Shown here: positions 2,373 through 7,323 of the stretch, piece by piece
Position numbering within the stretch: position 1 is the stretch's first letter
How the letters are laid out: each line of letters begins with the position of its first letter
Source: Candidatus Gastranaerophilales bacterium
GTDB taxonomy: Bacteria > Cyanobacteriota > Vampirovibrionia > Gastranaerophilales > Gastranaerophilaceae
NCBI GenBank assembly: GCA_947589255.1
Contig: CANQAL010000003.1
Span: forward strand, 1-42,132
Direction of reading: 5' to 3'
Length of the DNA: 42,132 nt
The notes under the pieces: model-generated
The model's input: the letters and a program-made list of their open reading frames with translations, nothing else
Database searches by the model: none
What the model was told of the DNA's origin: nothing
Translations under genes and position numbers: made by a program

Positions 2373-2407
2373 AAAAGAGGAAGATTTGATTCTTCCTCTT
2401 TTTTTAA
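2373..2407. terminator. Bidirectional terminator between convergent genes
   Basis: A perfect 11-bp inverted repeat (AAAGAGGAAGA / TCTTCCTCTTT) with a 6-nt loop has A-rich and T-rich flanks. It serves the plus-strand gene ending at 2358 and overlaps the last codon of the minus-strand gene ending at 2404. Confidence 0.85.
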
Positions 2408-4002
2408 TTTAAAATCAGCTTTATATCTTCCTTTGGCGAAGATATTTCTTTTATATCAAATAATTTTTTTAAGCCTTCCAATAAAACCGGACTGATAACA
2501 TTAGGGCAGCAGTTTCCTAAAAATAAATTTTTTATTCCCAAATACTGTAAATTAAACAGATGAGAAATCGTATTAATTGCGCAATCCGTAAAGAAAATAC
2601 TTACATCCTTATTAATATTTTCAGCAAGATTGTTCATAACATTCAATATTTTATATAAAATCAAAAAATCATAATAAGGATTAACAAATAAAATATTATC
2701 TTTTGAATTATCATAAGCGAATGAAATTACAAACAAATCATCAGGTGCTTCCGATAAGAATTTTTCAATATAATCACCGGTTTTAGTGAATTTATCGATT
2801 AATCCGACAAAAGCAATATGTTTAATTTCACCCGTTTTATACATATTTACCATTTCCGTAATTTTACAAAGAAGCTCATTTTCATCATATCCTATGGAGA
2901 TATCATCTATAATTGTATTTTCGGTAAAACCTTTTGAATTAAGGGCATACTTGATAATCGGAGAAAAATCATCATTATCAATCTTCGCAATACCGAACGG
3001 AGGATATTTTGATTGTGTATATATTTGACCTCTGATAACATCAATTTTTGGAGCTGAATTTCTTGTTATAAAAATAGGTCCCGGGAAAGAAGCAAAATCA
3101 AGAGGAAAATTATTATTTAATCTTTGATAATGCCCGATAAGATTAGGATTTTCTTTAAATTTTTTATATTGAAATGCTGAGATTAGATTATTATGAGTAT
3201 ATACATTTATTTTTTTACCTCTTACAGACTCTAAAACTTTTTCCAAATCTAAAAAACTTGAACCTGATACAAGTATTGCTTTTCCTTCTTTTACGATAAA
3301 CGGAGCTTGTGATTTTTCTACAGGGCCGAATCGTTCACTTATTTTATTATACAATTTTTTTGTTATTTTATAGTTCCAAGCCGAAAACTCTTTAATCTTT
3401 ATTATCCATTCATTTTCATCCTCGGAAGTAAAATTAGCGCTATTAAATAATTTTAAGACTTCTTCTTTAGCTTCCGTAAAATCTATACCGTAATTTTTTA
3501 ATTCAATTAAACAGTTACAAGCATTAAGAACAAGATTAATCATAATCTCATACAAATTTTTTTTATTTGTATTAGTCAATAAGTCTTTCTCGCTAAGATT
3601 TTTTTCATGTTCATTTAAAGCTTTAATAATAGACTCTTTACCCGTAAGCACAGCCATTTTACGTTCGGTATTATCAGGTGTTATACCCTTTTGCGAACAA
3701 AGATTTATATACATATCCTGAAGTTTGGTTTTATTATCATACAAGTCCTCAACTATAACAAAAAAACTTTCTTTTTTAAAATCCAAATTAACTATTAATA
3801 CTGAAACAAATTCAATAACTTTATCCGTATATGAACTCATATCAACATCTAAATCTTTTAGTTTTTCAATATAAAAGACAACATCTCTCAATTCGGAAAC
3901 AAGCAGTTCTTTAATAGCATAAAAATAAGGGTCAAAAGAAAAAATTCCGGATGAATTAGCCCCCGTACAAAGCGAATTATAAAGATTAAAAAATTTATTC
4001 AT
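2404..4002 (-). CDS. Hybrid cluster protein (Hcp/hydroxylamine reductase) homologue lacking the metal ligands
   Basis: The 532-residue protein aligns end to end, from memory, with Hcp (E. coli about 550 aa). Matching segments are INVYTHNNLI (family VNVYTHGEML), FASFPGPIFITRNS (FxxFPGPIxMTxNC), DNDDFSPIIKYAL, GEIKHIAFVG and LGIKNLFLG, ending in SSPKEDIKLILN. The true enzyme has an N-terminal four-Cys cluster and a hybrid Fe-S-O cluster. Here the N-terminal Cys set is absent. Of the hybrid-cluster ligands only His270 remains; the expected Glu is Asn272, the Cys positions are Ser316, Ile402, Tyr430 and Tyr443, and the Glu/Lys pair is Ala475/Asn477. It should not bind the cluster. The frame is intact, so this is not an obvious pseudogene. 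It lies 14 bases after glutaredoxin in the same transcript, with SD AAGGAAT. A scaffold, regulatory or binding role is inference. Confidence 0.8.
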   Translation of the reverse strand: MNKFFNLYNSLCTGANSSGIFSFDPYFYAIKELLVSELRDVVFYIEKLKDLDVDMSSYTDKVIEFVSVLIVNLDFKKESFFVIVEDLYDNKTKLQDMYINLCSQKGITPDNTERKMAVLTGKESIIKALNEHEKNLSEKDLLTNTNKKNLYEIMINLVLNACNCLIELKNYGIDFTEAKEEVLKLFNSANFTSEDENEWIIKIKEFSAWNYKITKKLYNKISERFGPVEKSQAPFIVKEGKAILVSGSSFLDLEKVLESVRGKKINVYTHNNLISAFQYKKFKENPNLIGHYQRLNNNFPLDFASFPGPIFITRNSAPKIDVIRGQIYTQSKYPPFGIAKIDNDDFSPIIKYALNSKGFTENTIIDDISIGYDENELLCKITEMVNMYKTGEIKHIAFVGLIDKFTKTGDYIEKFLSEAPDDLFVISFAYDNSKDNILFVNPYYDFLILYKILNVMNNLAENINKDVSIFFTDCAINTISHLFNLQYLGIKNLFLGNCCPNVISPVLLEGLKKLFDIKEISSPKEDIKLILN

Positions 4003-4016
4003 AACACGGTATTCCT

Positions 4017-4283
4017 TTAATCTTCAAGCATTTCATCAAGTTCGCCGGCAGTATTTAATTTGTTTAAAACATCAAAACCGCCTATTCTCTTTCCGCCTAT
4101 AATAATTTGAGGCACGGTAACTCTGCCTTCTATACCGTAATATTCACCCAGTTTATTTCGATATTCATCTTCATTTTGAGTAATATCTATTTTTTTATAA
4201 TCAATACCTTTTTCTTTTAATAACATTTCAGCTTTTTTACAGTAAGGACAATAATCTACCGTATAAATAACAACTTCTTTCAT
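4017..4283 (-). CDS. Glutaredoxin (dithiol, CPYC)
   Basis: An 88-residue single-domain glutaredoxin for GSH-type or thioredoxin-dependent disulfide reduction in the cytoplasm. It shows the redox site YTVDYCPYCKKA, the cis-proline motif TVPQIII and the GG(F)D motif IGGKRIGGFD. I chose the ATG at 4283 because AGGTG sits six bases before it; a GTG three codons upstream is part of that Shine-Dalgarno sequence. It is upstream of, and probably co-transcribed with, the degenerate Hcp homologue. A perfect 21-nt palindrome lies in its leader. Confidence 0.93.
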   Translation of the reverse strand: MKEVVIYTVDYCPYCKKAEMLLKEKGIDYKKIDITQNEDEYRNKLGEYYGIEGRVTVPQIIIGGKRIGGFDVLNKLNTAGELDEMLED

Positions 4284-4307
4284 AAAAAACACCTATATAA
4301 CATAATA

Positions 4308-4361: not shown

Positions 4362-5135
4362 CTATTTACTTATTCTTGAAATTAAATCTTGTATATTTTT
4401 CTTTTCTTCATCGGGTAAATCAAAATTGAGATAATCCTGAAAATATTCAACGGCGCTTTCATAGTCATTACGCGCCATAAAAAGCACACCCAATTTTTTG
4501 TATGAGGGATGAAAATTTTCATTAACTGAAATTGCTTTTAAATGATTTGAAATAGCTTTATCAACATTATCATTTGCCTCATACGCCAAAGCTGTTTGAT
4601 AATATAGCACGGCATTATCGGTAATTTTTTCAAGAACATTTTCATAATTATCAACCGCGCTGTCATAATCACCAAGTTCATATTGAATATTACCCAAATC
4701 CCAATAAGCGTCAATATTATCAGAATCTATATCCAAAATTTCAAATAATTGATCCATCGCCAAATCATATCTGCAATCTTCAACGTAAAATCTTGACAGA
4801 TAATGTTTCAGGGCAATTTCTTTTGGCATAAGCGTAACGGCATTTTCCAAAAGATTTATAGCGTCAATAATATTTTTATTCCTGAAATAGACATCGGAAA
4901 GATTTATATATGTTTGAACAGATTTAGGATTAACGGAAAGAGTTTTAATAAAATATTCAACAGCCAAATCATCCTTAGCCAGTTTTGAATAACAAAGCCC
5001 GATATTATTCATAATATTGGGATTATTCTTATCTTCCTCAAGCTCTTTAATAAACAAATCCGCAGATTTATCATACTGCCCGGATTTAAATAAATTAAGC
5101 GCCTCTTTTAAATTTGTATTTATTTCATTTTCCAT
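4362..5135 (-). CDS. Tetratricopeptide-repeat protein
   Basis: A 257-residue all-helical protein made of about six to seven 34-residue TPR units. Several carry the canonical G/A-Y/L-A-x-x-x-Y pattern, for example SGQYDKSADLFIKEL, LGDYDSAVDNYENVL and RNDYESAVEYFQDYL. No signal peptide or membrane segment, so it should be a cytoplasmic protein-protein scaffold. It is first in a minus-strand run with glutaredoxin and the Hcp homologue, separated from glutaredoxin by 78 bases, and divergent from yebC with 56 bases between them. Partner unknown. Confidence 0.85.
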   Translation of the reverse strand: MENEINTNLKEALNLFKSGQYDKSADLFIKELEEDKNNPNIMNNIGLCYSKLAKDDLAVEYFIKTLSVNPKSVQTYINLSDVYFRNKNIIDAINLLENAVTLMPKEIALKHYLSRFYVEDCRYDLAMDQLFEILDIDSDNIDAYWDLGNIQYELGDYDSAVDNYENVLEKITDNAVLYYQTALAYEANDNVDKAISNHLKAISVNENFHPSYKKLGVLFMARNDYESAVEYFQDYLNFDLPDEEKKNIQDLISRISK

Positions 5136-5974: not shown

Positions 5975-6517
5975 TTAATGTTTTAATCGAATTAATTTTG
6001 TAAGCATACTTGGAGATTTTGATGAGAATATACCAAGCAGCGAAAACTTATTATTTAAATTTTTATGTTTATTTTGCATTAATTCTAATTCCATACCTAC
6101 ATTGGAATATAATTCTTTAATAACATCCTTAGCGCGTTCTTGTTCATTTTTATATTGCGAACGTATTTTTTCAAGTTCATTATGGTCAAGGAACTTACCT
6201 CCGCAGCTGTAACATTCATCAACTTGAACATCATGTTTTGCACTCGCATAATTTTTCATCATTGCACTGCCGCATACGGGACAATATCTCGTTTCCGTTT
6301 CATCTACTTCTTTAAATGTTTTATTTTCAAAAATTTTTTCTAACGGTTCAATATCTTCATGAGCTTCATCAAATTTATTAAATTCTCTGTTATCAAAATA
6401 AATACCGCCGCAGCCATCAACGCAAACATCTAAATTTACACCTGCTGTCGGCATAAAAATTTTTTTCATTTTACAACCGCACGCAGGGCAAGTAATTTCT
6501 TCCAAATTATCAGCCAT
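5975..6517 (-). CDS. Double zinc-ribbon protein (TFIIB-type), copy 1
   Basis: A 180-residue protein with two zinc ribbons of the kind annotated as transcription-factor zinc-finger (zf-TFIIB). The first uses C10/C13 and C32/C36, the second C79/C82 and C102/C105. Each ribbon is followed by GG-[IK]-[YF]-[FL]-D-[NH]-x-E. The first knuckle is CxxxC (CVDGC) rather than the CxxC of its neighbour. The C-terminal tail is helical and charged. The start has AGAGGT upstream. It is a tandem paralogue of the next gene, 66 bases away on the same strand. Cytoplasmic. Role unknown; the family name does not prove a transcription role. Confidence 0.85.
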   Translation of the reverse strand: MADNLEEITCPACGCKMKKIFMPTAGVNLDVCVDGCGGIYFDNREFNKFDEAHEDIEPLEKIFENKTFKEVDETETRYCPVCGSAMMKNYASAKHDVQVDECYSCGGKFLDHNELEKIRSQYKNEQERAKDVIKELYSNVGMELELMQNKHKNLNNKFSLLGIFSSKSPSMLTKLIRLKH

Positions 6518-6583: not shown

Positions 6584-7252
6584 TTATTCATTATCCGGAA
6601 AATTATTTTTTATATTATTCAAATAATATTTTGTATAAGCATCAGCCAATGGTTTTTGAAATGCTTTAAATCCCATAAAGCGTAAGACAGGAAACATTTC
6701 GCCAAAAAACGCAGTTCCGCAGTATCTTCTATAAGCGCCTCCGGCTTTTTTTAGGTCGTTTAAATTTTGTAAAGCATACTTTGCACGCTCATAATATTCA
6801 TTTTGTTGAGCTTTAAACACTTGACCGTATTCACTGTTATAGAATTCTTTTAAAACTTCCATATCACGCTCTTGAACGGTATTTGCTTCGGCGCGGATTT
6901 TAACTAATTCGTCATAATTAAGAAACTTTCCGCCGCAATGGTAGCATTCATCTATTTGAACTTCATGTTTAGCACTTGTATAATGTTTCACCATTGTATT
7001 GCCGCATGCCGGACATATTATAGTTGAATTATAATCGTGCTTTTTAAAATTTTGTCCTTCAAAAAGTTTAACAAGCGGAGTAATATCTTCGTGCGGTTCA
7101 TCCACCTTTTCATATTCGCGGTTATCAAAGAACAAACCTCCGCATTCCATACAAACATCAATATTGATGTTTGAATTTGTAAGATAAACTTTTTTCATTG
7201 TCTTATCACAGACAGGGCAGTTTATATCCAATGAATCATTATCAGATAACAT
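6584..7252 (-). CDS. Double zinc-ribbon protein (TFIIB-type), copy 2
   Basis: Paralogue of the downstream gene, 222 residues from the chosen start. Ribbons: CPVC...CMECGG near residues 12-38 and CPAC...CYHCGG about 45 residues later, each followed by F-[FL]-[DN]-x-x-E. I chose the ATG at 7252 because GAGGTG lies seven bases before it; an in-frame TTG 21 bases upstream precedes that SD and would include it as codons. The C-terminal 90 residues are longer than in copy 1 and contain an aromatic, basic stretch. No signal or membrane segment. Confidence 0.82.
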   Translation of the reverse strand: MLSDNDSLDINCPVCDKTMKKVYLTNSNINIDVCMECGGLFFDNREYEKVDEPHEDITPLVKLFEGQNFKKHDYNSTIICPACGNTMVKHYTSAKHEVQIDECYHCGGKFLNYDELVKIRAEANTVQERDMEVLKEFYNSEYGQVFKAQQNEYYERAKYALQNLNDLKKAGGAYRRYCGTAFFGEMFPVLRFMGFKAFQKPLADAYTKYYLNNIKNNFPDNE

Positions 7253-7323
7253 ATTTTTGCACCTCACATACAATTACAAAAATATTTTACAAAATTGAGG
7301 AAAATTTGTAAAATTTTAAACAC

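Follow-up and report, generated by a model that had tools for sequence, protein, structure and literature searches.

The Fe-S-O cluster of hybrid cluster proteins (Hcps) ranks among the most unusual, and the physiological role of these proteins has been debated for a long time. Roles as S-nitrosylase and as NO reductase are known (for review, see PMC10210160). The cluster ligands are kept in all Hcps of classes I to III (PMC10502027). Metal sites and extra cysteine motifs of Ni-CODHs are evolutionarily plastic, and Ni,Fe-CODH groups with altered C- or D-cluster motifs provide a precedent within the superfamily for loss or exchange of ligands and for new cysteine motifs (PMC6344411). The open-access papers searched, a set that excludes subscription journals, gave no account of cluster-less Hcps as a family or of Hcp in Gastranaerophilales.

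The window analysed here, a stretch of 42,132 nucleotides, stems from a metagenome-assembled genome (MAG) of 1.83 Mb and 95% completeness; nearly all genomes used for comparison are MAGs as well. It encodes a 532-residue protein that is designated HcpL here, together with its family (Table 1). Descent and fold make HcpL an Hcp, yet it lacks the ligand set by which Hcps are defined, and should therefore not be named hydroxylamine reductase or functional Hcp. Class I Hcps (prismane; TIGR01703; PDB 1E1D/1E2U of D. vulgaris and 8CNR) resemble HcpL in fold over the whole length and in a layout with an extra helical region, and they are its phylogenetic sister group within the order. HcpL differs from them by the absence of the four cluster cysteines, the Glu and Lys ligands and the first two N-terminal cysteines, by new cysteines at positions 102, 474 and 498, by a score below the equivalog cut-off, and by its linkage to a glutaredoxin. 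The class III Hcps of the same genomes (approximately 514 aa) belong to the same superfamily and coexist with HcpL in many genomes, but their ligands are intact, they form a separate clade, and they are devoid of the extra helical region. The altered Ni,Fe-CODHs keep most of their catalytic cluster ligands, whereas HcpL is a class-I-type chain without any cluster cysteines in the window.

In sequence comparisons, HcpL passed the cut-off of the Pfam Prismane model PF03063 (E 3.5e-24), and matched the hydroxylamine reductase model TIGR01703 with 180 bits (E 6.6e-53), which is below the equivalog cut-off of 360.8 bits. Among solved structures, E. coli Hcp was matched with an E value of 5.5e-32 and D. 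vulgaris Hcp could be aligned across residues 27 to 529; all matches were Hcps, except for one that was insignificant. The AlphaFold2 (AF2) model of HcpL, built from five sequences, was of moderate quality (pLDDT 66, pTM 0.64). With this model, Foldseek retrieved D. vulgaris Hcp as the top match over the whole length (E 8e-18, TM 0.68), and VIA-align yielded a Z score of 21.3 on the DALI scale across 481 residues, the top rows being all Hcps and the next ones CODHs. The assignment to the Hcp/CODH three-domain fold is secure; the same does not hold for the model's local details. The earlier note had described the protein as a full-length Hcp homologue, and the Pfam, PDB-sequence, Foldseek and VIA-align matches agree with this description, no other fold being ranked ahead of D. 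vulgaris Hcp.

Intact Hcps of the same order show CCCC / H E C C C C E K in the ligand columns. Aligned with them, HcpL of the window has F-AF and HNSIYYAN in these columns, which confirms each of the ligand replacements read earlier from the sequence (Table 1), the retention of His270, and the loss of the N-terminal four-cysteine set. For the family, the collected loci supplied 156 unique sequences of HcpL, which represent 36 genera. None of the four hybrid-cluster cysteines is kept in 139 of them and one in the remaining 17, while among the eight canonical residues zero to four survive, usually zero to two. Ligand loss is common to the orthologues, and a window copy decaying alone next to orthologues with intact ligands is not what was found: in 0 of the 156 sequences does the number of retained cluster cysteines exceed one out of four. 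In the N-terminal [4Fe-4S] motif, the first two cysteines are missing throughout HcpL, and the third and fourth are kept in 117 of 121 sequences outside the g1-like genera (g1 is the genus of the window). In the window genus, the fourth is replaced by Phe, and Cys12 is, judging from the alignment, probably the third N-terminal cysteine, shifted by a three-residue insertion.

Table 1. Genes and codons of the hcpL locus (positions within the window)
Feature	Coordinates	Strand	Basis or remark
TPR protein, first gene in the conserved TPR-Grx-HcpL gene row of the window genus	4362..5135	-	
Glutaredoxin, Grx3-like, CPYC	4017..4292	-	14 bp upstream of HcpL start codon
HcpL (532 aa), homologue of class-I Hcp over the full length, lacking hybrid-cluster ligands	2404..4002	-	sequence and predicted fold
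Cys12 codon, invariant in window genus	3967..3969	-	alignment
Cys102 codon, new near-invariant Cys, helix of N-terminal helical region	3697..3699	-	alignment
His270 codon, sole hybrid-cluster ligand kept; kept in 115/156 HcpL	3193..3195	-	alignment
Asn272 codon, canonical Glu ligand	3187..3189	-	alignment
Ser316 codon, canonical Cys ligand	3055..3057	-	alignment
Ile402 codon, canonical persulfide-Cys ligand	2797..2799	-	alignment
Tyr430 codon, canonical Cys ligand	2713..2715	-	alignment
Tyr443 codon, canonical Cys ligand	2674..2676	-	alignment
Cys474 codon, Cys gained and near-invariant (Tyr in canonical Hcps), just past predicted strand 467-471	2581..2583	-	
Ala475 to Asn477 codons, canonical Glu-x-Lys	2572..2580	-	alignment
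Cys498 codon, Cys gained and near-invariant (Thr/Ser of the GPT loop in canonical Hcps), just past predicted strand 492-495	2509..2511	-	

A maximum-likelihood tree was calculated from 72 sequences, 46 of them HcpL. All HcpL sequences cluster together (support 100), and with partly stripped proteins from two other families of the order they form one clade (SH-aLRT 99). This degenerate clade is sister to the intact class-I-type Hcps of the order (90; joining branch 86), and intact class-III-like Hcps from some of the same genomes constitute a clade of their own (100). By its position in the tree, HcpL belongs by descent to the class I and not to the class III Hcps, the degenerate clade being nested among the long class-I-type chains of the order. 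Since HcpL and the partly stripped relatives share one clade beside intact class I Hcps, the ligands are likely to have been lost stepwise. The relatives show graded ligand strings, CCCC/HECCGYDT (G048), SDCC/HECSGYQN (G040 and G045), and [CS]-IA/Y[TA]NCC[FY][GD][DN] (G044 and G047; for example YTNCCFGD). From the f7 forms we infer an order of events in which the domain-3 ligands 430, 443, 475 and 477 disappeared early. The partly stripped f7 relatives (L136-L138) are located directly 3' of rpoC without a glutaredoxin, a setting that differs from that of HcpL in f1, the family of the window.

In a survey across the order Gastranaerophilales, Prismane matches were detected in 350 of 383 genomes. 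HcpL is present in nearly every genome of the same genus, and a family profile found it in 80 out of 80 further genomes of f1. When the phylum was surveyed, HcpL-type scores (>380 bits) were confined to f1; the maximum outside this family was about 280 bits, which is the range of intact Hcps and refers to sequences not aligned individually. HcpL is a core gene of one Gastranaerophilales family, and its restriction to the window genome or genus is ruled out by the order-wide and family surveys. Among HcpL pairs with unsaturated dS, dN/dS ranged from 0.03 to 0.42 with a median of 0.25 (NG86 counts, for which dS above about 1 is unreliable). Values were 0.03 to 0.13 for the closest pairs, and 0.20 for the window and its best orthologue, L033. 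All are below 1 and the frames are intact, in line with the proposal that the gene is kept under purifying selection.

Several genomes of the same genus additionally encode an intact Hcp (approximately 514 aa), apart from HcpL. None was found by the Prismane search in the window's own MAG, at its 95% completeness. The second Prismane match of this MAG, on contig C32 (L002), is another HcpL in a TPR-grx-hcpL locus. The C32 stretch is 91% identical to the locus of the orthologue in genome G034, compared to approximately 77% between the window and G034; C32 is therefore probably a contamination of the assembly by a contig from a sister species, and a paralogue of the own genome was rejected on the same grounds. 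Tandem paralogues were encountered elsewhere (L107, 417-3685, and L108, 3971-8842), two head-to-tail in G257 and three in G382. Their frames overlap or nearly do so, each copy differs in the residues at the old ligand positions, and possibly they form a multi-subunit complex.

Around 29 columns of the HcpL alignment show at least 90% identity, and Cys102, Cys474 and Cys498 are the only cysteines among them. In 154 HcpL sequences, they are conserved to about 92%, 96% and 96%, respectively, and none of them is present in the intact Hcps of the order, which have Tyr at 474 and Thr or Ser at 498. Together with the two N-terminal cysteines, a five-cysteine set results that is complete in 101 of the 121 sequences outside the g1-like genera; in the window genus, Cys12, 102, 474 and 498 remain. 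In 148 sequences, Cys474 is found together with Cys498, six have neither, and single losses occur only in two sequences cut by the end of the locus (Fisher p 1.5e-9, kinship ignored). On the tree, six losses were counted for each of the two, in the same lineages, and agreement was seen in five out of five supported pairs that are independent of each other (p 0.0625, which is as low as this test can go). The alignment of the six loss sequences was read by eye; one of them, L226, has a cysteine one or more residues off. Cys102 changed 12 times on the tree compared to six for the pair, with partial agreement only, and strict co-loss of all three residues was therefore dismissed. The two cysteines of the former cluster domain follow predicted strands (Table 1), and the lost ligands 402 and 430 likewise sit after strands 395-401 and 423-427 in the AF2 model. 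As these strand ends lie on one edge of a Rossmann-like sheet, Cys474 and Cys498 should, by topology, both line the emptied cluster pocket.

A glutaredoxin gene is the frame directly upstream of hcpL, with -63 to +49 bp between the open frames, in 91 of 153 f1 loci for which upstream sequence is available. This arrangement spans 16 of the 36 genera, and at loci of intact hcp genes a glutaredoxin was directly upstream in 0 of 19 cases, with the Hcp classes pooled. HcpL and glutaredoxin thus display conserved gene coupling. Two unrelated-looking glutaredoxin types are involved, a Grx3-like one, used in g1, g41, g42 and g51, and a small one of Grx2/GST_N_3-like type, used in 12 genera, and the respective loci fall in different parts of the HcpL tree. 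In two genomes of the window genus, the TPR and YebC neighbours are lost and glutaredoxin and HcpL are still joined. The motif of the linked glutaredoxins is mostly CPYC or CPFC, with about nine CPYS. In the own genome, only two strong glutaredoxin matches were detected, both linked to HcpL, as well as a strong match to glutathione synthetase (E 1.8e-47). At 62 of the 153 loci, from about 20 genera, there is no adjacent glutaredoxin and Cys474/498 are still kept; the glutaredoxin is therefore not an obligate neighbour. Conversely, in one g42 case an HcpL without all three cysteines is still linked to a CPYS glutaredoxin, and in L213 (g21) the three cysteines are missing beside a CPYC glutaredoxin. 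In G385 (g53), the gene 65 bp upstream of HcpL specifies TIGR03980 (DUF1858), a small CxxC-type redox-disulfide protein named for its association with Hcp, whose fold is unrelated to that of glutaredoxin, the partner commonly found with HcpL. In genus g44, hcpL is immediately preceded by a pyrophosphate-type phosphofructokinase-like gene, and the same gene type precedes an intact class-III-like hcp in the g1 genome G023 (loci L141 and L144).

A core gene with lost cluster cysteines, new conserved cysteines and a frequent glutaredoxin partner argues for a re-tooled thiol protein and against a dead copy. The reading preferred here, still a tentative one, is that the Hcp scaffold was turned into a glutaredoxin-coupled cysteine redox protein, whose chemistry and substrate we infer. 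A vertically inherited class I Hcp would have been neofunctionalised in the ancestors of family f1, its hybrid [Fe-S-O] cluster site being taken apart stepwise and the scaffold kept. Within the former cluster domain, Cys474 and Cys498, each at the C-terminal end of a strand, would function as a pair, in the simplest case as a redox-active disulfide/dithiol, and Cys102 with the two leftover N-terminal cysteines (outside the window genus) may serve as second thiol site or relay. A dithiol (CPYC) glutaredoxin from the same transcript would reduce or de-glutathionylate HcpL with glutathione. Proximity of Cys474 and Cys498, a disulfide between them and electron flow from the glutaredoxin would be expected, the distance being judged solely by the topology of the strands. 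A metal could just as well be bound by the conserved set of five cysteines. In this closest rival, which we regard as rather unlikely, two N-terminal cysteines and Cys102, 474 and 498, perhaps with Asn6, His291 or an Asp, would bind a [2Fe-2S] or [4Fe-4S] cluster, Zn or heme, and the glutaredoxin would supply a cluster or a glutathione ligand. Completeness of the five-cysteine set in most sequences outside the g1-like genera fits well, the paired conservation of 474 and 498 suits joint ligation of a metal no less than a disulfide, and some partner glutaredoxins are CPYS. Glutaredoxins can carry [2Fe-2S] clusters. Plastic metal sites and extra cysteine motifs in related Ni-CODHs (PMC6344411) also speak for such a swap. 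On the other hand, only Cys12, 102, 474 and 498 are left in the window genus because of the Phe at the fourth N-terminal position, Cys102 was lost independently of the pair in many lineages, and the predominant CPYC/CPFC motifs are commoner in redox than in cluster-transfer glutaredoxins.

The earlier note had favoured a pseudo-enzyme acting as binding or regulatory protein, which finds no support as stated; the near-invariant cysteines and the N-terminal pair of most genera had been overlooked. A chemically inert binding or scaffold protein, for instance for the glutaredoxin or another enzyme, with purely structural cysteines, is unlikely. It would agree with free drift at all hybrid-cluster ligand positions and with the tandem copies, as multi-subunit scaffolds may show, but a structural role alone, in a cytosolic protein, does not easily account for near-invariant new cysteines in a former active-site domain, their paired loss and the link with a redox enzyme. 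New cysteine chemistry is thus favoured over the less likely dead scaffold, since two of the new cysteines lie in the former cluster domain and are lost only as a pair. Very improbable is residual Hcp chemistry, in which HcpL would act in NO, hydroxylamine or S-nitrosothiol metabolism with cysteines in place of the cluster, for example as a denitrosylase with glutaredoxin. Descent from a protein with known S-nitrosylase and NO-reductase roles and the TIGR03980 gene in G385 could be taken in its favour, but no NO-related genes neighbour HcpL in the window or the inspected loci, and the intact class-III-like Hcp of many of the same genomes would cover NO chemistry. Consequently, of the suggested tie to thiol or NO stress through the glutaredoxin, the glutaredoxin link holds, whereas for NO there is no evidence. 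Finally, in the same-genus MAG G002 (1.5 Mb) HcpL is reduced to N- and C-terminal remnants, flanked by an intact glutaredoxin and the following gene, indicating that hcpL can be lost. A decaying relic or annotation artefact can nevertheless scarcely be considered in view of the family survey, the dN/dS values and the intact frames, and for the family a pseudogene is ruled out by its presence in all further genomes and by purifying selection.

If the cysteine redox reading is extended, HcpL may represent a new class of redox proteins, in which a conserved cysteine pair, served by a glutaredoxin of its own, took over in situ from the metal site of an Hcp/CODH fold, with a core function in the whole family and surviving intermediates recording the order of dismantling; this view is more speculative. 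With the scaffold kept, the cluster removed and intermediates such as HECCGYDT, HECSGYQN and YTNCCFGD in sister families, cofactor loss by a complex metalloenzyme becomes traceable, as does what the Hcp fold can do without its cluster. For this core protein of gut bacteria that are abundant yet hardly cultured, the glutaredoxin is a concrete candidate partner. For annotation, it has to be considered that hundreds of Prismane-matching Gastranaerophilales genes cannot be hydroxylamine or NO reductases.

In the window, the minus-strand genes for the TPR protein, glutaredoxin and HcpL follow each other in this order, divergent from yebC. The ATG start of HcpL is indicated by the N-terminal MNKFFN, which is kept across the same-genus orthologues, and the true start of the glutaredoxin is likely Met4 (4283). 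Adjoining yebC, a tandem paralogue pair with CxxC-type zinc-ribbon-like motifs is found on the minus strand (5975-6517 and 6584-7273). Between fabF and hcpL, a 383-residue protein without Pfam match is encoded on the plus strand (1207-2358). It diverges far faster, with 40-62% identity compared to about 90% for fabF and about 80-90% for the TPR protein, and is absent or unrecognisable at several orthologous loci.
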